Source: a virus. Taken from it: a stretch of 20,066 bases of DNA. The DNA lies in IMG/VR virus record IMGVR_UViG_3300013772_000043, positions 4,158 to 24,223 of that record, one strand, 5' to 3'. Of this stretch, positions 1,171 through 20,066 are shown in pieces. Each line of letters begins with the position of its first letter. Positions within the stretch are counted from its first letter, which is position 1. The position numbers and the translations under genes were made by a program. Under the pieces are notes generated by a model, which saw only the letters and a program-made list of their open reading frames with translations, was not told the origin of the DNA and searched no databases.

Positions 1171-4100
1171 CTAAGTCTGTATAGCTAGCTTCCAGTAAAT
1201 GTTCTCAACCACAGAGTCAGCTACCTGCGATTCGTCTAGGCCAGCGGATGGGTAGACATTAGTGATAATTGTCGGTCCCGGAGCAGATGCCGACACTGTA
1301 GCCGATGGGGCAGCTTGGGTAGTAAGTACCGGACCTCTTATAGACCGAGATGCTGATGCATTATTTGCCATGGCCGAAAGGATTCCACCATTTGCAAATT
1401 TTAGCTTCTTTACCAACGAGAATCCAAACATTTCTGCTACCTGATCAAGAATCTTCAGGGACCTTGGACGCTTGGTGGGGCTTAGAGGAATATAAGCCTC
1501 TCCCCCAGTTTCTGGTTCCGACCATACTCTAAAGGGGGTCTGGCCCGCCGAAATCTGTGCTATGTGGTTTTCAAGACCGCCTCCAGCAAATGACTTTAGG
1601 TTGCTGAATCCACCATTAGCAAACATTTCTGCTCCCGATGGGAGCGTCAACCCACCATTAGCTCTCTTAAGGCTTGCTGGAATTCCATCAGTGTCAGATG
1701 CAGGGGCACCCGGAGTCCCCGCTGTACGGAAGAGCGACAGAATAGTGACCGTCTTGTCCTTCACGCTGTCGATAGCTTGCCTTGCTTGGGCAGCAATCGG
1801 GCTGACACCATCTACTGCTTTAAGGTCAACAGACTTACCGAGAACTAGCGCAATGGTCTTCTTGGCATCCTCAGCAGCAGGCCCAGTAATGTTCATAGCC
1901 TTGAGGAATGATGTGTAGTCACCATTACTGACCGCGAGCAGCGCAGCAAGGGCTTGCTCCTTCGGAACCCCAGTCTTGTCAAGCGCGTCAAGAACAGCTT
2001 GGTAGTTTCCGTCAGCGAACTCTTTACCCTTACCGGTAACGGCAGCAATAGCGGCTTTTGCATCATCAGGTAGCGCACGAAGGGTTGCAGCGAAGTTACC
2101 CGAAGTAAAGGAGTCTGCCGCAAGCTTGGTAAGGAGGATCTTCTTTTGGGCCTCCTCGGCACCATCAACACTGATAGCTGTTCTGATCTGATCTGGCATC
2201 AGTCCGAAGCTCTTGATGACAGCATCAATCTGTGGTGCACTGAGGCCGATCTTCGCCATTGTATCACGCAGGCTAGCTACACCGGGAGCCATAGCCTGAA
2301 CCGCTATGGCGTTAGCATCTGCTGTACTCTTACCAGCCTTAAGCGCCTGATCCATTGCGGCGGTGCCGATTTTAAGGATCGCATCAGATTGGCCGTCAAG
2401 GGCAGTGTGGAGGTCACGACCTGCCTGTGAGGTCAAGTCGAATCCCTTGCCAACAGTGTAGAGGTTTCCTACCAGCCCGTCATTCTTTTTGATAACCTCA
2501 TCAAGGGCAGTCTTAGTGTCTGCAAGTGTTTGCTGATAGGCTTTCTCAGCATTAACGCTAACGCTGGCTTTGTTATTCTTAGCCTCGGTGCTTTGATTGA
2601 GGAGATCAAGGTTCTGCTTCAATGCACTGAATTTATCCGAAGCAGAACTCGTCGTACTGGCTAGTACATCGTAGTTTTTGGTGAGTATCTGTGCTTGCAC
2701 ACTGGAAGTTCCGGTAGCTTCCCCAAGCTTGCGAACCTTTTCTTCGGCCTTGCTAAGCTCTTCCGCCGCGTTTTTTGCCTTCTCGGCAAGGTGGGCCATG
2801 TCGTTACCATTAACGCCCTTCAGGGCTTCTTTGGTTGACCCAATAGCCGCAGCCATCTGGTCCGTGACCGGGCGTCCTCGACGCATTGCGGTAGCAATAT
2901 CATCCATTCCCTTGACATAGCTGTCTCGGCTGGAAGAGTCCGCCAACTTGTCCACATACTGCTGAGTAGATGTTCCAAGCTTTCCAAGAGATTCCTCAGT
3001 GGATTTGGACCCATGGGCCACTCCACGGACGAAGTTATCCCAGTCATTTGTCACACCGTCAAGGGAGTTGGACGCCAGCAGTTTCTTAGTGGCACCCGTG
3101 ATGGTAGCTGAGCCTTGGTCCAGAGATGCAGCCAGCGCATCAGTCTTCGCCTTTGACTCGGCCAGACTGTCGGCGTACATTGTAAGGGCCGTAGTCGCCG
3201 CAGCAAGGGCAATGCCCCACGGGCCTCCAAGGACTCCCAGAAGCCCAGAAGCCGCCCCCTTGAGTCCTGATCCGGCTGCTGTGCCGATGGCACCCATAGT
3301 GTTTTTTGCAGCGGTGCCGATCTCACCAAGGGCAGTTCCGGCAGGGGACAGCATCTGTCCAAGCCCAGAAAAGGTCTCTCTAATTGCAGCACCGGCAGGA
3401 GCAAAGTTCTCCTTTAGGGCACCCATTGCAGAGGTAAAAGTGGTTCTGACGGCGTTAGCAGTAGTGGACGCGGCAGTAGTTACCCCATTGAATGCACTTC
3501 CCATTGCATTGGAAATACCTGCCCCAACATTGGCAAGATCCTTGGCAGCATTGGAGAATGCCGTAGAGAAGTTCCCTCCGACCCTTGATGCAGCAATCTG
3601 GAACTTATCTGCTATAATACCCGCGTGAATACTGGCGGCAGTTGAGAGTTCTGAAAACGCCACTCTAGCTGGGACGGTGGCAGTGTTTATCGCAGCACCT
3701 ACAGCAGTTGCCATGTTGCTAATGTGTGTAGCCGCAGTGCTGGCAGCAGTCTTTGCAGCATCTGCCATCTGAACAAATGGTGCAGTCATTGGGTTAATGG
3801 CAGCAGCAAGGATGGCGCTGTTGAATACCTTAGCACCCTCAGCACGGATCTTTCCAAAAGCATCAGAAGCCGACGATGCTAGTGTAGAGAGAGCACTCTT
3901 GACAGCAGCAGGTGCCTTCTGGATAGCTTCAACAGCCGTCTGCATTCCCTTGCCGATATCTTCAAGGCGCTTCGAAGCATAAAGGGATTGGTCCTGAATG
4001 ACCTGCTTCATTTTTTCCATGGCAAAGCCGACTGCTGGTCCAGCGAGTGTCTTGGCAATGTCAGCTACACCAGCAGCCACCTTTTGGCCAGCCCATGCCA

Positions 4101-6666
4101 TTGTCTGGCCGATTTCTCCCGGAAGAGCCTTAAGTGCAGGGCCTAGTAGGCTGGCTGGGAATGCGGATGCAAGCGACTTCCCAATCTTGATAATGGAGTC
4201 CTTGGCCGCAGTGAAGTAGCCTGTGTAGATTCTGGCTACTTCAGCGAGACTGGCTCCGACACGCTTGAAACCGTCACGTACCTCTTGAGGAAGGAGAGCT
4301 TCAGCGAAGACCGCCCTCATCATGGAGCCGAACTCCTTGACAGGGCCAGCTAGCTTCTTCATCTGGTCGCCAACCTGAGAGAAGGTTGCCTTGAACCCAT
4401 CGGCAATATATGCGCTAGTAAGCTTTACACTATCGCTAATGCCTGTGAACGCCTTCACTACAGCATCTTTTGCATACCCTGCTGAGATACCGATAGTGCT
4501 GAATCCATCATGAATAGGCGAACCCGGACCAAAGGTACTGTTAAGCTTCTCCTTAGTATTAGCAAGAGCTTGCCCGAATTTGCCCAATGCACCGTCAGAA
4601 GACTCGTTCATAGCTTTCTTGAAGCCATCCATGTCGCCCTTGGAGAGGCTGTTCATGGCCTTTCCGAACCTCTTTACCTCACCATCGGCAGTATCGCCAA
4701 ACATCTTCTTTAGCTTGGAAAGTACTACAAGGAAGAGACCAAAGGTAAGGATGCCGTTCTGAACAAACGATGGAAGGGATGCAAAGAACGATAGAATATT
4801 ACCGAGTGCCTGAGCTAACGTGATAGCAATTGGGGCGGCAACGACAAGAATATTCTGAACAAAGTCGTTAAAGATAGGGATGGTCTTGACAACCCCATCA
4901 CGGAGTCCACCAATAACTGCCCTTAGGGTCTCAAAAAGATTGTTTAGGCCGGGAACCATGTTTACAAGTACGACAGAGGCGATCTGGCTGAAGTCGCCCA
5001 TGATCCCGCCGAAGTCCCTGAAGGTAGGCTCAAGGTCCTTCATTGATTTCTGTACTGCAAATAGGAAGGTTACAAATCCGTCACCAAACCCTGTACCATC
5101 AAACACTTTGGAGATATTGGTAAGGAATTGCCCACCAACCGATCCAGCAACCGACATGAATTCAGAAAGAGCAGCTGCCGATTTTCCGGCAACATCCATG
5201 ATCTTTCCGAGACCGCCACCAAGAGCGTCCATACCCTTACGGGCACCCTCTAGGATCAGGACCAGTCTGGAAGTGAAAGGCTCCCCATTAACTGTCTTGG
5301 CAATGTCCTTCATCCCATCTGCCATGTCATGAAGACCCTTGCCTCCTGACATGTCAGAGATCTTGACAAAGCCACTGAAGATATCTACAGTGCTGCCTAG
5401 AATGCCCCCTAGGTCCTTGAGGTTTGCAACGGCAGTGTTGATCCAGACATTGATCTTTCCAGCTTCATCTGCCTTGGTAATGAAAGCGTCAAACCTGTCA
5501 GCAGACTTGGCGAGCCAGTCACCGAAGATCGGGAGATACTTAGATCCTGTAACACTGAGGCGATTCATGGCGTCAAAGAATGGTGTTACAGCCTTAGTGG
5601 CTTTATCGAGACCTAAGCCAACGTTATCAAAGAGGATCTTTAGTCCGCCGCTACTCGAAAGAGTTGCGAAGGACTGAAGAACCGTTTTAGTCATCTTTCC
5701 TATGGAGGTTTCAACTGTAGTGAAACCCTCCTTGGCAACCGGAACCATCTTCTTTACGGTATCCTGAAGGGATGTACCCATTTCAACCCAGAAAGCCTTC
5801 TGGGCTGGCTTGGTTACCTGCTCCCAAAGGCCCTTCAAAGACTTGGCGGCAGTCTGTGCTTCGGGTGGGAGCAACGCCAAAGCCTTTGCGGCAGTCTTAG
5901 CGTTTGAGGACATAGCATTGCCGAAGTTATTCCACGCCAAATGCGACGCAGTAAGTGTGATGAGCATGCCAGAGAATGCCGCTGGTAGTACCGCTACAAT
6001 GCCTGCAAGACTGCCAAGGTCACCGGCAACGGAGAATGCGTTTGCACCTAGTGTCAGGAGGGCAGCACCAGCAGAGCCAACGAGGGTTGACATCTTGGCC
6101 ATAGCAATGGATAGTTGTTCAATGTTCCCGAGAACCCCGGCAATAGCTTCCTGAATGGCAGGGGCAGGGACCGCCCCCATCATTGTATACTTCAGTGCCT
6201 GAAGAGCCTTTGTGATCTCGGGGTCGATCTTGATCTTCGCAGATATAGTTGCGGTTCTTTTGCGAGATACAGCCTCAAGTTGTGCTTCTGCACGTGCTGT
6301 GTCGGCATTGGCGTTAACGTGGGAGGGCATCTCACGGAAACGCTCTCTTATAGACTGAAGAGCCGACTCCATGGGAGTTGTATCAGCGTGTGATACGATA
6401 TGTAGTGGGTTGTCCTCGTACAGCTTGTGAGCATCTGCAAGACCGGAGATTAGGTTCTTGTTGTCTACCTCAGCAGAGAACTTTAGCGGGTTGGCTTTTA
6501 GTTCGGCGCGAAGCTCATCAATTTGCCTACGAACTGGAGCAAGGTTGACATCTGCCCTAAGATCCAACGTTACGTCGTTGATCTTCTTTATGGCATTATC
6601 AATGTCACGACGTAGATATGTATCCAGTGCGCGTATCTCGACATATGCCGAACCTATGATTGTCAA
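1171..6666 (-). CDS. Tape measure protein
   Basis: About 1831 residues: by far the largest gene, just downstream of the tail assembly chaperone pair, which identifies it as the tape measure protein that sets tail length and lies inside the tail tube. The N-terminus (TIIGSAYVEIRALD) is the usual opening of actinophage tape measures. It is followed by a helical, charged stretch to about residue 150, long Ala/Ser/Lys-rich helices, and hydrophobic segments near residues 220-245, 605-655 and 1140-1165 that could insert in the membrane during DNA entry. Near the C-terminus are Gly-rich FANGG/FAGGG repeats and the common EPETGGEAYIPLS motif. I chose the TTG at 6666 because GGAG lies 6 nt upstream; another in-frame TTG at 6678 would add four residues but has a poorer ribosome site. 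No lysozyme or peptidase motif was recognised. Confidence 0.95.
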   Translation of the reverse strand: MTIIGSAYVEIRALDTYLRRDIDNAIKKINDVTLDLRADVNLAPVRRQIDELRAELKANPLKFSAEVDNKNLISGLADAHKLYEDNPLHIVSHADTTPMESALQSIRERFREMPSHVNANADTARAEAQLEAVSRKRTATISAKIKIDPEITKALQALKYTMMGAVPAPAIQEAIAGVLGNIEQLSIAMAKMSTLVGSAGAALLTLGANAFSVAGDLGSLAGIVAVLPAAFSGMLITLTASHLAWNNFGNAMSSNAKTAAKALALLPPEAQTAAKSLKGLWEQVTKPAQKAFWVEMGTSLQDTVKKMVPVAKEGFTTVETSIGKMTKTVLQSFATLSSSGGLKILFDNVGLGLDKATKAVTPFFDAMNRLSVTGSKYLPIFGDWLAKSADRFDAFITKADEAGKINVWINTAVANLKDLGGILGSTVDIFSGFVKISDMSGGKGLHDMADGMKDIAKTVNGEPFTSRLVLILEGARKGMDALGGGLGKIMDVAGKSAAALSEFMSVAGSVGGQFLTNISKVFDGTGFGDGFVTFLFAVQKSMKDLEPTFRDFGGIMGDFSQIASVVLVNMVPGLNNLFETLRAVIGGLRDGVVKTIPIFNDFVQNILVVAAPIAITLAQALGNILSFFASLPSFVQNGILTFGLFLVVLSKLKKMFGDTADGEVKRFGKAMNSLSKGDMDGFKKAMNESSDGALGKFGQALANTKEKLNSTFGPGSPIHDGFSTIGISAGYAKDAVVKAFTGISDSVKLTSAYIADGFKATFSQVGDQMKKLAGPVKEFGSMMRAVFAEALLPQEVRDGFKRVGASLAEVARIYTGYFTAAKDSIIKIGKSLASAFPASLLGPALKALPGEIGQTMAWAGQKVAAGVADIAKTLAGPAVGFAMEKMKQVIQDQSLYASKRLEDIGKGMQTAVEAIQKAPAAVKSALSTLASSASDAFGKIRAEGAKVFNSAILAAAINPMTAPFVQMADAAKTAASTAATHISNMATAVGAAINTATVPARVAFSELSTAASIHAGIIADKFQIAASRVGGNFSTAFSNAAKDLANVGAGISNAMGSAFNGVTTAASTTANAVRTTFTSAMGALKENFAPAGAAIRETFSGLGQMLSPAGTALGEIGTAAKNTMGAIGTAAGSGLKGAASGLLGVLGGPWGIALAAATTALTMYADSLAESKAKTDALAASLDQGSATITGATKKLLASNSLDGVTNDWDNFVRGVAHGSKSTEESLGKLGTSTQQYVDKLADSSSRDSYVKGMDDIATAMRRGRPVTDQMAAAIGSTKEALKGVNGNDMAHLAEKAKNAAEELSKAEEKVRKLGEATGTSSVQAQILTKNYDVLASTTSSASDKFSALKQNLDLLNQSTEAKNNKASVSVNAEKAYQQTLADTKTALDEVIKKNDGLVGNLYTVGKGFDLTSQAGRDLHTALDGQSDAILKIGTAAMDQALKAGKSTADANAIAVQAMAPGVASLRDTMAKIGLSAPQIDAVIKSFGLMPDQIRTAISVDGAEEAQKKILLTKLAADSFTSGNFAATLRALPDDAKAAIAAVTGKGKEFADGNYQAVLDALDKTGVPKEQALAALLAVSNGDYTSFLKAMNITGPAAEDAKKTIALVLGKSVDLKAVDGVSPIAAQARQAIDSVKDKTVTILSLFRTAGTPGAPASDTDGIPASLKRANGGLTLPSGAEMFANGGFSNLKSFAGGGLENHIAQISAGQTPFRVWSEPETGGEAYIPLSPTKRPRSLKILDQVAEMFGFSLVKKLKFANGGILSAMANNASASRSIRGPVLTTQAAPSATVSASAPGPTIITNVYPSAGLDESQVADSVVENIYWKLAIQT

Positions 6667-6676
6667 CCTGTGCTCC
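6664..6676 (-). promoter_or_regulatory. Ribosome binding site deciding the tape measure start
   Basis: The minus strand reads GGAG, then six bases (CACAGG), then TTG at 6666-6664. This spacing is near ideal and favours that TTG over the upstream in-frame TTG at 6678, which overlaps the GGAG. The stop of the frameshifted chaperone lies at 6682-6684, so translation may be coupled. Confidence 0.5.
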
Positions 6677-6681
6677 AACTC

Positions 6682-7032
6682 TTAATTCAACGGGGCAAAC
6701 GGAATTCCTATATACCCATCTTCAGTCTGATCGGCATACTCAATTTCCGAGTAATCGTACTCAACCTCCGGATTGTCAGTATCACGGGCTGTGTAAAACT
6801 TGTCAAAGGCTGTTCGAATCTTCAGCAGAGTATCTTCTGTCTCTGCGTTCTTCAGGGCCTCTTCGACAAGGATGTCGTCTATAATATTGAATGACCTCTC
6901 ACTGCCCAACTCATTGAACAGTTTTTTAAGGTCTAGTCCCTTACGGAGATGGTGGCCGTCAATATACGGCCACCATCGTATGAAGTCGCGCCCTATCCCT
7001 AGGACGCTTCCGTAGGGCGCGAGGAACGCTCC
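6682..7032 (-). CDS. Tail assembly chaperone, -1 frameshift extension
   Basis: This frame is open from just after a TGA at 7033-7035 to the TAA at 6682-6684, and overlaps the end of the first chaperone gene in the -1 frame. It encodes roughly 110 residues including GRDFIRWWPYIDG, RKGLDLKKLFNEL and an acidic C-terminus (NPEVEYDYSEIEYAD). The position between the first chaperone and the tape measure is the standard place for the second half of the lambda G/GT-type pair. No ATG or GTG lies in frame; the only internal start candidate is a TTG at 6909 without a good ribosome site, so expression by -1 frameshifting is more likely. A slip anywhere in the overlap gives a fusion of 218 residues. The slip must fall between about 7035 and 6999, where I see no canonical X XXY YYZ heptamer. 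Confidence 0.75.
   Translation of the reverse strand, partial: GAFLAPYGSVLGIGRDFIRWWPYIDGHHLRKGLDLKKLFNELGSERSFNIIDDILVEEALKNAETEDTLLKIRTAFDKFYTARDTDNPEVEYDYSEIEYADQTEDGYIGIPFAPLN
6948..6977 (-). other. Perfect 12-bp hairpin after the chaperone stop
   Basis: GATGGTGGCCGT (minus strand) is followed by a 6-nt loop and its exact reverse complement (arms 6966-6977 and 6948-6959). It lies inside the -1 frame extension about 22 nt beyond the first chaperone's stop. There is no T-run after it, so it is a poor terminator. It may act as a downstream structure for frameshifting or slow ribosomes there. Confidence 0.7.
6986..7022 (-). other. Perfect 10-bp hairpin spanning the chaperone stop codon
   Basis: TCGCGCCCTA (minus strand, 7022-7013) pairs exactly with TAGGGCGCGA (6995-6986) across a 17-nt loop. 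The TAG stop of the first chaperone (7001-6999) lies in the loop. It covers the only interval where the ribosome can change to the -1 frame, so a role in recoding is plausible. Confidence 0.7.
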
Positions 7033-7337
7033 TCAACCAAATATGCAACGATATTTGAGAGCTTCTCAATGCTGATTTTGTGGTCTGGGCTTTTGATGAT
7101 AGTATCAAAGCGCTTAAAGTTCTCTTCGTCCATCGACGCCTTGAGGTAGTCTAGGAGGCCCTTTGCGACACCTGCTGAGTTGTCACCGCTGGTAGCAGCA
7201 ATGAACTCCAGTGTGACGGCTCCGGAGACATCTCCGTATGCTTCAAGGGTCTCACCCTTGATCAGTTCGAACTCGATTGGCTCTACTGGTGCTTCTTCAG
7301 TCTCAGAGACGAAGGACTTGATCTTACGTGCTGCCAT
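6999..7337 (-). CDS. Tail assembly chaperone (lambda gpG-like)
   Basis: A 112-residue acidic protein just upstream of the tape measure gene. It begins MAARKIKSFVSETEEAPVEP, has a folded-looking middle (FELIKGETLEAYGDVSG, AKGLLDYLKASMDEENFKRFD) and ends VEERSSRPTEAS. The RPT-x-x-S tail before the stop is typical of actinophage chaperones at the point where a fraction of ribosomes shift frame. The chaperone and its frameshifted fusion keep the tape measure soluble and help load tail tube subunits; neither stays in the virion. The ATG at 7337 has AGGA about 6 nt upstream. The stop lies in a hairpin loop, and the -1 frame downstream remains open for more than 100 codons. Confidence 0.9.
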   Translation of the reverse strand: MAARKIKSFVSETEEAPVEPIEFELIKGETLEAYGDVSGAVTLEFIAATSGDNSAGVAKGLLDYLKASMDEENFKRFDTIIKSPDHKISIEKLSNIVAYLVEERSSRPTEAS

Positions 7338-10949: not shown

Positions 10950-13028
10950 CTAGCCAGCAACCGTAGTGGTTCCAGAAGAGGAACCCTTGATTGCGAGGGC
11001 GGAAGTTACGCGTAGGGATTCTACGCCAACCTTGGCAACGCCTTCAAAGGTCTCAAGGAAGATCTTGTAGTCGTTAGTGCCGTTGAGTGTGGAGTCGCGA
11101 ACGATTCCGAGGTCAAGAGTTCCGCCATCAAGGAAGAGGAAAGTACCCTCAGAGAAGAGGTACCAGATGACGTCGCTCGGGAAGCTAAGAAGCGCGCCAT
11201 CAGCCTGTGCACCGAAGATCTGGCCTGCCTCACCATCAAGGTGCCAAGACACGTTGATGTTGCGAGTGGTGAACCACTTGCCGATTTCAGCCTCACCGAG
11301 GTTGAAAGTACCGTCGCGACCGTCACCCGGAAGTTGCTTGGTCAGGTCTGCACGGAGTGCATTCTTGAACCACTCAGGGAAGATAACACGGAGCGGAGCG
11401 GTTGGGTCAAGGCGGTAACGGCTACGGTAAGCAGCAGCGGCCTGTTCGATCTGAACGAAGATGTCGCGAGCAGCACCAAGCTGAGCAGCAGCGGTAACCT
11501 GTGTAGAAAGGGCACCGATGCGGGTAAGAAGGCGAGTCTCAGCGAAACGTGCCTGCTGAACCATACCAAGCTGTGTGTGGCGCTCGACAAGCTCAGGGTA
11601 TGCGCGTGAAGAGAGGTTACCGAAGGTAAGGATGAGCGGGATAGCGTCTGTGTAGACGGTAACTTCAACGCCAGCAGCAACGCGGAGAGCGGGCTTGACA
11701 GGGTTCGGCAGTTCCGGGGTGGAAGCATCGATGTCGTCCTGCATGGTCCATACGGATACAGCACCCGCAAGATCAGAGAGAACCGGAGGAGTCATGAAGC
11801 GGAGTCCGCCACGGTCTGCACCGAAGACTGCAAGAGCATCACGGACTGGGCGGACAGAAGTCTCGCCAAGCTCGAAGATGTCGTAGGAAGTCTCGACCGG
11901 TGCTGTAAGTCCACCAGCAGCAAGGATAGCTTCAGGAGCTACAACTGCGTTGATCTTGGAGCGGTTACCCTCAATGTCGTTTGCGTTGAGCATACGATTC
12001 GACGGGAACGTAGTGGAGAACGTAGCAACGGTGTGCTGTTCGCCGTCTCCACCGGAAGTGCGGCCCATGCCGTGCTTGCGGGAAAGGATTGCCTGAGCAA
12101 CCTCAGAGATGCTGGAGAACTCGGAACCAGCGGTGATTCCGGGAAGGTCAGCGCCAGCGGTAATTACAACCGGAGCAACTGCCTTAGGAGCAGGACGTAG
12201 TTCTGCTGGAGCTTCGAATTCAAGCTCGCTTGGGGTGTTAGAGGCGGTCACTGGTTCCTCCGAACTTTCTGTGATAGAATCTGTTGTAGAGAATTCCTCT
12301 ACGATAACATTAGGGGTTTCGGTAGCGCTTTCAGCTTCCGGTGCTTCTTCGATAGCGGCTTCAGATACGGTGGCTACATCTGCGGAGAAAGGCTTGAGAT
12401 CTTTCTTCTTCTCAGCGTCTTCCTCTTCAGGTGTTTCGCCAGCTTCTTCCTCAGGAGATCCTTCAGCAGGAGCAGCAGCGAAAGGCTTGAGATCTTTCTT
12501 CTTCTCAGCGTCTTCCTCTTCAGGTGTTTCGCCAGCTTCTTCCTCAGGAGATCCTTCAGCAGGAGCAGGCTCAGCGTCTTCCTCTTCAGGTGTTTCGCCA
12601 GCTTCTTCCTCAGGAGATCCTTCAGCGGGGGCTGGTTCAGCCTTCTCCTCTTCAGGTGTTTCGGAGTCTTCTTCTTCTTTAGAGCCTTCAACGGGGTTAG
12701 AATCACCAAAAGCGAGTTCTTGTCCAGTTTCGTCCGCTGGTGCGTCCTCTGCGGCTGGGTCGGCATCTCCTGCATTCATGCGGGTCTTTGCTTCTTCAGC
12801 GGCTTGAGATAGCTCAGCGGCCTCGGCTACACGGCGGTCCTGCTCGCCAACAACAACGTCGTTAGCATCGGCAAGCTCGTTCATAGAGTCTACGGCTTCG
12901 CGAGTGGGGGTGTCTCCAATGGAATCAGATAGTGAGCCGAATTCGGCTACAATCTTTTCCTGTAGGGCAGTAAGTTCTTCCGGAGAAAGGTCGCTTAGGC
13001 GATCTAGATTTTCACGGATTGAATCCAC
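10950..13028 (-). CDS. Major capsid protein with N-terminal scaffold-like arm
   Basis: About 692 residues from the GTG at 13028. Residues 1-85 are helical (DSIRENLDRLSDLSPEELTALQEK), suiting a delta or scaffold domain. About 95-275 is an acidic, disordered arm with four EGS-EEE-ETPEEE repeats and two KKKDLKPF elements. From about 285 the HK97-fold capsid core begins, with AAGGLTAPVETSYDIFELG near 370, RPVRDALAVFGADRGGLRFMTPP, and VDAMQDD-like strand regions to the end. Only the core, about 400 residues, would be expected in mature shells after cleavage by the upstream protease. I chose GTG because AAGGAGG lies 5 nt before it and the protein start there fits the family; an in-frame ATG at 13070 would add 14 residues and has no ribosome site. 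Confidence 0.92.
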   Translation of the reverse strand: MDSIRENLDRLSDLSPEELTALQEKIVAEFGSLSDSIGDTPTREAVDSMNELADANDVVVGEQDRRVAEAAELSQAAEEAKTRMNAGDADPAAEDAPADETGQELAFGDSNPVEGSKEEEDSETPEEEKAEPAPAEGSPEEEAGETPEEEDAEPAPAEGSPEEEAGETPEEEDAEKKKDLKPFAAAPAEGSPEEEAGETPEEEDAEKKKDLKPFSADVATVSEAAIEEAPEAESATETPNVIVEEFSTTDSITESSEEPVTASNTPSELEFEAPAELRPAPKAVAPVVITAGADLPGITAGSEFSSISEVAQAILSRKHGMGRTSGGDGEQHTVATFSTTFPSNRMLNANDIEGNRSKINAVVAPEAILAAGGLTAPVETSYDIFELGETSVRPVRDALAVFGADRGGLRFMTPPVLSDLAGAVSVWTMQDDIDASTPELPNPVKPALRVAAGVEVTVYTDAIPLILTFGNLSSRAYPELVERHTQLGMVQQARFAETRLLTRIGALSTQVTAAAQLGAARDIFVQIEQAAAAYRSRYRLDPTAPLRVIFPEWFKNALRADLTKQLPGDGRDGTFNLGEAEIGKWFTTRNINVSWHLDGEAGQIFGAQADGALLSFPSDVIWYLFSEGTFLFLDGGTLDLGIVRDSTLNGTNDYKIFLETFEGVAKVGVESLRVTSALAIKGSSSGTTTVAG
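12387..12690 (-). repeat. In-frame tandem repeats in the capsid arm
   Basis: 12387-12475 and 12480-12568 are identical over 89 nt at a 93-nt (31-codon) offset. A third copy of the shorter core starts at 12570, offset 66 nt (22 codons) from the second copy's core at 12504. A fourth, diverged copy lies around 12636-12690. Each unit encodes AEGSPEEEAGETPEEED or a variant; the two 93-nt units also carry EKKKDLKPF. All offsets are multiples of three, so the frame is kept. The near identity points to recent duplication. Confidence 0.9.
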
Positions 13029-13040
13029 AGTTCCCTCCTT
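13026..13040 (-). promoter_or_regulatory. Strong ribosome binding site and GTG start of the capsid gene
   Basis: The minus strand reads AAGGAGG (13040-13034), five bases, then GTG (13028-13026). This is the closest match to the anti-Shine-Dalgarno sequence among the starts in this window and decides the capsid start over the upstream in-frame ATG at 13070. Confidence 0.75.
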
Positions 13041-13054
13041 AGATTTTATAGAGG

Positions 13055-13069
13055 TGGACAGAGTGTCCA
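13055..13069 (-). other. Small hairpin in the capsid mRNA leader
   Basis: TGGACA pairs perfectly with TGTCCA around a 3-nt loop, ending 14 nt upstream of the AAGGAGG ribosome site. Such a hairpin could protect the 5' leader or tune translation. It is short, so chance cannot be excluded. Confidence 0.4.
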
Positions 13070-13139
13070 TCGGGGGTTTTCTGGCATTCGGCAGAAGGGC
13101 GGATATCTATATACACGCGCTTTGTTTAAGTATAAGATA

Positions 13140-17934: not shown

Positions 17935-20066
17935 CTAGACTGCCCCCGCTGGGGCAACTGCTGTATCTACTGTAGCAGAAGGTGCCGCAGAATTCAACAT
18001 GAAGTCTCCGTACCAGTGAGTGTGCTTCAGCATTTCCTTGCCGAACCATTTCACATCAGGTCCGGTATCGCCTGAAGTCGGGCGACCGATGTTGGAGAAC
18101 GCTACTGCTGGCGGATGAGTTCCGTTCAGGAAAGCCTCGGCAGTAGCCTTCGCCCTCAGTTCCTTGAACTGACGAATGCCGTCTGCCCATTCTGCTTCCC
18201 TGCCTCGTGGTGCCCTGCCCCATGCACCGTCCCATGCGGTCATAGCAGACGCCATGTAGTGGGCGGATCTGAAGTCAAACCCGCCACGTGCCCACGCATA
18301 GCTACCGATTGAGATATCAGCGTGGACCGTGATACGGTCAAGCCCCATCTGGCGGTACATCTGCTTGGATGCCTTCAGGAACGCGGCGGAAATGCCAGAA
18401 CCCTGCACATCCGAAGCAAGATCCCAGTACGCGTGCTCGACACTAGACACTCTCTTACCTGTTCGGCTGTCCGTTGTAATACTAAAGCGTCGTTGAGCGG
18501 GTCCAAGTTCTCGGCCTCCTTGGAAGAACTGAACATAGGTTGTCATGCTTCCAGATTCGAAGGAGATATCGCCTCGTAGCTCGGCTCTGAAGCCTGCTGG
18601 TAGTTCGGTATTCAGGTTCTCAATGAACCTAGCATATCCAGCACGTACAGCCTGCTTTTGGGCGTTGGTGAGTGCGCCGAAGCTACCACCATTTTCCAAG
18701 AATGCGCCCAAGCTCTGGCCTCCGGGAAGATTCAGATCCTCAGCGTACATGCCTACGTTATTGCCGAAGCGGTTGTCCTTAGGGGCTACCGTAGATGTAC
18801 CCATTAGCTCTTGGAATACCTTAACAGTATCATCAGTCACGAACCTACCAGTCGGCTGTCCGTCTTTGATCATTTCCCACTTATCAGGACCGACGCGCTT
18901 CATACCGGATGTAGATCCTTCGGCGCTCGGCAGGAGCGTCCCCACTGGGAGCTTATCGTGGATAGCCGCTACCGGTGTCGAAGGTGCAGCCGGTGCCTCC
19001 TGAGGCATAGTTGCGACTGGAGCGTGAGTGCCGTATGAGAGGCTCAATCTCCAAGCGAGGTCGGCATCGTTGTAGTACTCTTCCGGATTTTCTGCTGAAG
19101 ACCAAACATCTGCCTCCCTACGGATGAACGTTGTATTGTTTCGTCCACCAGTAACAGTAGCTCCCTCAGGCAGCGAAGTCAACTGCTTCTCAAGCTCATT
19201 ACCGTCACGAGACATCGGCCCACCCTTGAATACAGCTTTCGCGTCAGGGGCCGGGGCAATATCAGGGACATTAAAGCCCTGAACAAAGTAGTTACCGGTG
19301 TACGGGTTGTTCTCTAGCTTGGAAGCGAACTCAGCGAGATGGTACTTGAAACTACCTGTTGCCGTATCAGCCCATAGTGTGTCGCTGATCTTAGTGTAGC
19401 TCTCGCCTTCACTGCTGGTAACAATCGTACCGATTGGTGCCTCTTCAGCCACACGCTGCCTTGACCCAATATCCTGCGGAATCGGGCGCGGAGTCGGTGG
19501 AGTAACTACACCCGGCTCATGAATACTACCTGCCCAAGAGACATCAGCGGATGAGTTTTCTTCGCCATTGAGGTCCCAAGAATCGGACCCGACTTTTTCG
19601 TAAGTGTATCCACGTACGTTGATGACAGACCCAACAGGGAGCGCCTTAATCGCTGCCTCACGTTCGGCCCGACCGGTAGGCAGGGTTCCTTTCGGAGGAG
19701 CAACAACAGTGTCAGGGTGTGTAAGCCCATACGGGCCGGAAATATCAGCCCTCCCAGCAAAGTACGACAGGTCAGCAGGCGTAAAGTGCTCTCCGAGATG
19801 GTTAGTCCATTCGCGATCACCAGTCTTGGTGAAGACCTTGCCTCCCGTGCTTGTCATCTTAGAGCCGATAGGTGCCTGACGGAACGCAGCCATCCTATCA
19901 GTGACGCTTAGCCCAGTGATGTTGACACCTTCTACCGATGGGGTAGTTGGTGTGTCAGATAGGGTTACAGGCGGGAGAACCGTAGGGCCAGCCGGTGCAG
20001 GGGTTGCCGCAGGCTGGTCAGGTGTAGGTGTAGGTGTAGGTGTAGGTGTAGGTGTAGGTGTAGGTG
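17935..20066 (-). CDS. Large repeat protein with C-terminal GNAT-like domain (5' end outside window)
   Basis: The frame is open to the window edge, giving 709 visible residues; the ATG at 19893 has no ribosome site, so I treat it as internal. Numbering from that Met, an upstream Pro-Thr repeat and Pro-rich linker lead into five diverged repeats at about 6-45, 84-121, 151-190, 240-283 and 314-360, each with a pattern like P-x-G-(ST)-(IVK), a (FY)-x-(KR) strand and a W. Residues 405-480 form a mixed domain. Residues 480-541 look like a GNAT fold: VQGSGIS (496-502) resembles the acetyl-CoA-binding Q-x-x-G-x-G loop, followed by a helix, GLDRITVHAD and YAWARGGFDF. Whether it binds acetyl-CoA is unknown. 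It precedes the head genes and may be a virion or assembly protein. Function is not established. Confidence 0.75.
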   Translation of the reverse strand, partial: PTPTPTPTPTPTPTPDQPAATPAPAGPTVLPPVTLSDTPTTPSVEGVNITGLSVTDRMAAFRQAPIGSKMTSTGGKVFTKTGDREWTNHLGEHFTPADLSYFAGRADISGPYGLTHPDTVVAPPKGTLPTGRAEREAAIKALPVGSVINVRGYTYEKVGSDSWDLNGEENSSADVSWAGSIHEPGVVTPPTPRPIPQDIGSRQRVAEEAPIGTIVTSSEGESYTKISDTLWADTATGSFKYHLAEFASKLENNPYTGNYFVQGFNVPDIAPAPDAKAVFKGGPMSRDGNELEKQLTSLPEGATVTGGRNNTTFIRREADVWSSAENPEEYYNDADLAWRLSLSYGTHAPVATMPQEAPAAPSTPVAAIHDKLPVGTLLPSAEGSTSGMKRVGPDKWEMIKDGQPTGRFVTDDTVKVFQELMGTSTVAPKDNRFGNNVGMYAEDLNLPGGQSLGAFLENGGSFGALTNAQKQAVRAGYARFIENLNTELPAGFRAELRGDISFESGSMTTYVQFFQGGRELGPAQRRFSITTDSRTGKRVSSVEHAYWDLASDVQGSGISAAFLKASKQMYRQMGLDRITVHADISIGSYAWARGGFDFRSAHYMASAMTAWDGAWGRAPRGREAEWADGIRQFKELRAKATAEAFLNGTHPPAVAFSNIGRPTSGDTGPDVKWFGKEMLKHTHWYGDFMLNSAAPSATVDTAVAPAGAV
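20021..20066 (-). repeat. Hexanucleotide tandem repeat encoding Pro-Thr
   Basis: The plus strand reads GGTGTA repeated seven times plus four bases, running to the window edge, so the full length is unknown. On the coding strand it gives alternating CCT and ACA codons, a Pro-Thr linker. Hexamer gain or loss keeps the reading frame, so the linker can vary in length by slippage. Confidence 0.9.

Follow-up and report, generated by a model that had tools for sequence, protein, structure and literature searches.

A conserved C_CCN tetranucleotide as the probable −1 frameshift site of the tail assembly chaperone genes in a family of actinobacterial phages

The position just before the tape measure gene is the usual location of tail assembly chaperones. 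In lambda-type G/GT systems two overlapping genes stand there, and late in the first gene a −1 shift yields a fusion carrying the T domain (PMC5009743). The locus described here is alike in each of these respects; it differs in that its putative slip site is a tetranucleotide and not a heptamer, and in that G matched no family in searches of Pfam and PHROG. A search of PDB likewise gave no credible relative of G. Shifting at Z_ZZN tetranucleotides, where one tRNA re-pairs, as it could at C_CCU, is known from a survey in E. coli and from IS1 and IS3 (PMC4066793). At C_CCU a downstream stimulator is needed in E. coli, where the ranking in the presence of a structural stimulator is C_CCU = C_CCC above C_CCA and C_CCG, and the C_CCU tetramer shifts weakly and requires a strong stimulator (PMC4066793). 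The natural IS examples named in that work are A_AAG, U_UUY and A_AAA, whereas here a whole phage family retains C_CCY, and does so in a tail gene. A literature search found no paper on the use of C_CCU in phages, and annotators and frameshift finders mostly seek X_XXY_YYZ heptamers. The 'threetwotwo' motif CCCGGAA of PRFect and the SEA-PHAGES annotations (PMC10885494) is matched by C_CCG_GAA in phage Cece and its relatives, whereas C_CCU_ACG fits none of the eight listed backward motifs, judged by the motif names.

The window analysed here is a stretch of 20,066 nucleotides from a 24.2-kb virus record, the relatives of which are the Arthrobacter phages Racecar, Mimi, Talia1610 and Atuin (192–194 kb). 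Its order of transcription includes a major head protein, a match to a major tail protein, a head-tail adaptor, a tail completion/Neck1-like protein, G, T and the tape measure protein, the overlapping pair G/T immediately preceding the tape measure gene (Table 1). Homologues of G carry the annotation tail assembly chaperone in deposited records. The N-terminal part of the major head protein (10950-13070, minus strand) is long, acidic and composed of near-perfect repeats (AEPAPAEGSPEEEAGETPEEEDAE), and an open frame at 17935-20064 on the minus strand, which runs off the window, has a PT dipeptide repeat at its start (PTPTPTPTPTPTPT).

Table 1. Features of the G/T locus, in window coordinates
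Feature	Position	Strand	Remarks
G, tail assembly chaperone ORF	7337..6999	−	112 aa; G alone terminates at stop 7001-6999
G N-terminal part common to both products	7014..7337	−	108 codons up to the putative slip codon; homologues annotated tail assembly chaperone
GAGGAG, Shine-Dalgarno-like	7029..7034	−	11 nt upstream of C_CCT
10-bp hairpin, TCGCGCCCTA/TAGGGCGCGA	6986..7022 (7022-7013 with 6995-6986)	−	perfect; stop in loop
Putative slip site C_CCT_ACG	7011..7017	−	Pro CCT 7016-7014 would give way to CCC after a one-base step back; invariant CGC 7019-7017 stands before it
Frame-0 tail of unshifted G	6999..7013	−	T-E-A-S-stop; further in-frame TAG at 6995-6993
Conserved hairpin 1, GCGTCCTA-GGGA-TAGGGCGC	6988..7007	−	8 bp, tetraloop
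Second hairpin, GATGGTGGCCGT/ACGGCCACCATC	6948..6977 (6977-6966 with 6959-6948)	−	12 bp; perfect in the window
−1 frame T extension	6682..7014	−	110 codons after the slip; TAA end at 6682; no ATG/GTG/TTG before 6909
Tape measure protein, directly downstream	1171..6678	−	PHROG tape measure matches

By its position, its frame and the selection acting on it, all read from the DNA, the pair is of the lambda G/GT kind. A programmed −1 frameshift at C_CCU, assisted by a hairpin, very probably yields a G-T protein of 218 residues beside the shorter G. The −1 frame has a TGA at 7035-7033 and then, starting with 7032, no further stop until the TAA whose last base is 6682; the only interval available to a −1 slip is 7032-6999. 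An earlier sequence-only reading had stated that the extension is open only from 7032 and that the interval holds no X XXY YYZ heptamer; an ORF check agrees with the former, and a script scan of 7041 to 7000 returned no X_XXY_YYZ in frame. Within the open interval C_CCT_ACG, at 7017-7011, is the sole triplet run in slip phase, and the translation computed through its CCT has the 218 residues that had been given for the fusion. Three other candidates were rejected: A_AAA_AAC near 6929 is in slip phase but lies 3′ of three frame-0 stops and is not conserved, TTTGGTT at 7041 is not X_XXY_YYZ and precedes the −1 TGA, and a Mu-type −2 frameshift is contradicted by T, which sits in the −1 frame of G and not in the −2/+1 frame.

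Homologous loci were collected using as queries the G protein, a G profile and the DSL-LC01 and Cece homologues. This gave 71 family loci, 67 of them distinct over the site. CGC_CCN was not demanded by the queries, except by one DNA pattern that added a few close relatives; three matches to a hairpin pattern (L120, L122 and L123) and L119 were left out as unrelated. CGC_CCN is invariant at the homologous codon in all 67 distinct loci, the third base of the Pro codon varying (CCU 38, CCA 18, CCG 7, CCC 4); as background, CGC makes up 21% of the Arg codons that precede Pro elsewhere in these loci. None of the genome contigs searched contained an exact match to the slip block. Across the relatives, stops in frame −1 extend no further than codon 10, and no frame-0 stop comes before codon 15; CGC_CCN occupies codons 11-12, and two further codons fit ahead of codon 15. 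The synonymous share of codon changes upstream of the site is 0.40–0.84 in frame 0 versus 0.02–0.08 in frame −1, and downstream of it 0.10–0.19 versus 0.40–0.47. Protein-level selection switches from frame 0 to frame −1 at the site in all three clades, and the frame-0 constraint ends after the Pro codon. The sequence-only reading had pointed to CCT at 7016-7014, and with the invariance of CGC_CCN and the change in the frame of selection at this position the predicted slip codon is indeed that CCT. The C_CCU slip site appears to be kept by the entire family of actinobacterial phages, as C_CCN with a variable third base.

T lacks a start of its own ahead of the conserved portion, and selection acts on it throughout the overlap. 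No ATG, GTG or TTG occurs in the −1 frame between 7032 and 6910, though this stretch is conserved, and since no start lies ahead of the conserved −1 segment YGSVLGIGRDFI...WPYIDGHH, the segment is reachable only from G. It is highly improbable that T is instead a separate gene, beginning at TTG 6909 and expressed with no programmed frameshift, as the separate ORFs annotated in the deposited Racecar, Atuin, Cece and DSL-LC01 would have it; about 34 conserved −1 codons lie upstream of this first possible start, selection in frame −1 begins just after CCN, and the frame-of-selection test largely contradicts such an arrangement.

The slip motif varies among the relatives. In the clade of the window (clade W) it reads C_CCU_ACG, once C_CCU_ACA, and only tRNA-Pro can re-pair. 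The canonical heptamer C_CCA_AAU is found in 18 of the 67 loci, with the same codon position, −1 frame and fusion; the window has CCU ACG in place of CCA AAU, and C_CCY sites tend to have the stronger downstream structure. One relative has C_CCU_UUG. Any of seven different codons may follow C_CCU or C_CCC, whereas C_CCA is followed by AAU only (18/18) and C_CCG by GAA in six of seven loci. This freedom of the following codon, wide after C_CCU and C_CCC and restricted after C_CCA, parallels the ranking of the tetramers in E. coli (PMC4066793). Two codons further upstream, the distant Gordonia phages GMA2, which is annotated as frameshifted, and Phendrix have G_GGA_AAC and A_AAA_AAA, respectively. 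The G-T tree has C_CCU in each of its two deep clades and C_CCA_AAU nested within one, which argues that the non-heptameric site is not simply a decayed heptamer; it appears to be widespread and stable and not a recent decay. The tree does not prove in which direction the motif changed, because heptamers of other kinds stand in the outgroup and several of its forks are open. The family offers a natural series of C_CCU, C_CCC, C_CCG and C_CCA_AAU at one homologous position with different structures, which makes it directly testable by what rule one tRNA slips into −1 and how downstream structure compensates.

Slippage at the same site could also take another path into the same frame, as by +2, −4 or a short bypass. 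Steps that end in the same frame are indistinguishable by sequence alone, and other tail phages are known to use −2 and +1 shifts (PMC5009743), but the invariant C_CCN and the related C_CCA_AAU, G_GGA_AAC and A_AAA_AAA all predict −1, and we give such a path hardly any credence.

Two perfect inverted repeats had been described around the stop of G, one of 10 bp with the stop in its loop and one of 12 bp located 8 nt further on, and both are present as stated. The region 6940-7030 folds with −47.5 kcal/mol (z −5.55), which none of 200 dinucleotide shuffles equalled, and the 12-bp hairpin alone has a z of −7.2. In the predicted best fold an 8-bp hairpin, hairpin 1 (7007-7000 with 6995-6988, loop GGGA), replaces the overlapping 10-bp stem, and the stop codon then falls in the top of the 5′ arm and the loop. 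The two hairpins are mutually exclusive because they have the 3′ arm in common. Hairpin 1 is complete in all 15 distinct members of clade W, one pair varying between U.G and U-A, and in each of the nine members tested its stability exceeds that of synonymous recodings preserving the −1 protein (z −3.6 to −4.7). Covariation speaks neither for nor against it because its pairs hardly vary, and its CTA and ATA codons also write frame-0 TAG stops, which is an alternative cause of their conservation. The hairpin is absent in the sister clade V. A C.A mismatch interrupts the 10-bp stem, which the sequence-only reading had taken as the element, in L004, Atuin, L016 and L019, and its outer pairs are missing in L020, L025, L026, L022 and L038; that role passes to the overlapping 8-bp hairpin, intact in every member. 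By its slip-phase tetramer, conserved in the whole family, and its placed downstream structure, a putative stimulator at 7007-6988 preserved beyond synonymous recoding, the site is a Z_ZZN site as far as its sequence defines it.

The expected covariation of both stems among relatives was found for one of them. Two-sided changes affect five pairs of the 12-bp stem, as many as in 0 of 500 shuffles, and the stem is partly conserved: it is kept in most clade W members and strong in clade V (z −3.3 to −4.3), and it is lost in Racecar, L020, L025 and L026. The 10-bp stem, by contrast, is not consistently kept. Much of the 12-bp stem is dictated by the amino acids WWP...GHH, and this second hairpin is probably an accessory element. 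Clade X has a different stem (CCAGAGG/CCTCTGG), which begins 5 nt past the A-site codon and is not formed in the window. The median z of the structure in this clade is −4.3 at C_CCY versus −1.65 at C_CCA_AAU (Mann-Whitney p about 0.001, kinship ignored), which suggests that a weak slip site depends on a stronger structure. The predicted fold also has a helix, UACGGA/UCCGUA, that encloses the two hairpins; by inspection it is not kept in L004, L020, L025, L026, L038 or clade V, and it was rejected. The only match to a known Rfam element was a sub-threshold chance match.

In the proposed mechanism hairpin 1 would slow the ribosome at the slip site, and tRNA-Pro would leave CCU and re-pair with the overlapping CCC one base back. 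Translation would then resume in the −1 frame as ...R-P-Y-G-S-V-L-G. The slip would involve one tRNA, since re-pairing is impossible for the tRNA that reads ACG, the codon after CCU. The second hairpin lies about 33 nt beyond ACG and may help, and the upstream GAGGAG may act as a Shine-Dalgarno-like 5′ stimulator; this role is not separable from coding because GAGGAG encodes a conserved Glu-Glu. Hairpin 1 begins 6 nt past CCU when CCU is in the A site and 3 nt beyond the A-site codon ACG when CCU is in the P site. The usual spacer range is 5-9, and spacers as short as 3 are known (PMC5009743); the 3-nt spacer after ACG falls below the usual range and counts against the proposal, as do the weak shifting of the C_CCU tetramer in E. 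coli and the absence of hairpin 1 from clade V. What is read from the sequences is the frame in which selection acts, the invariance of the site, the missing internal start and the selection on hairpin 1; the movement of the tRNA, the pause and the yield of the fusion are what we infer.

It had also been suggested that the signal may be a non-standard one driven by structure; in the stronger form of this reading the hairpins would force the shift outside the rules of slippage and the re-pairing of the codon would be incidental. Two strong hairpins in a region of such low z and a next codon unable to re-pair are in keeping with this. The slip tetramer is, however, the only element common to all clades, the structures differing among W, V and X, and relatives with a canonical heptamer use the same position, which makes such recoding very unlikely. 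What stands of the suggestion is a predicted −1 G-T frameshift with downstream structure under selection; its place outside known rules does not, as C_CCU is a Z_ZZN tetramer that shifts in E. coli with a stimulator (PMC4066793). A further elaboration of the hairpin-assisted slip at C_CCU, which we regard as rather unlikely, is that the two arm-sharing hairpins form a switch setting the ratio of G to G-T, the 10-bp hairpin burying the slip codon and the 8-bp hairpin following it, within a family that combines a conserved one-tRNA C_CCY slip with a trade-off between slip strength and structure.

None of the deposited records for Racecar, Mimi, Talia1610, Atuin, Cece and DSL-LC01 has the G-T fusion annotated. 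At the loci of Cece (L014), DSL-LC01 (L011) and the Arthrobacter phages (L007-L010), T is deposited as a separate hypothetical protein that starts inside conserved −1 coding sequence.

Frame-0 stops occur in close pairs or triples (TAG NNN TAG) in the window (7001-6993) and in the clade V loci L031 and L034-L037. These stops are written by −1 frame CTA, ATA or GTA codons, also in clade V, which lacks hairpin 1, and such closely spaced stops may be selected as back-up termination.
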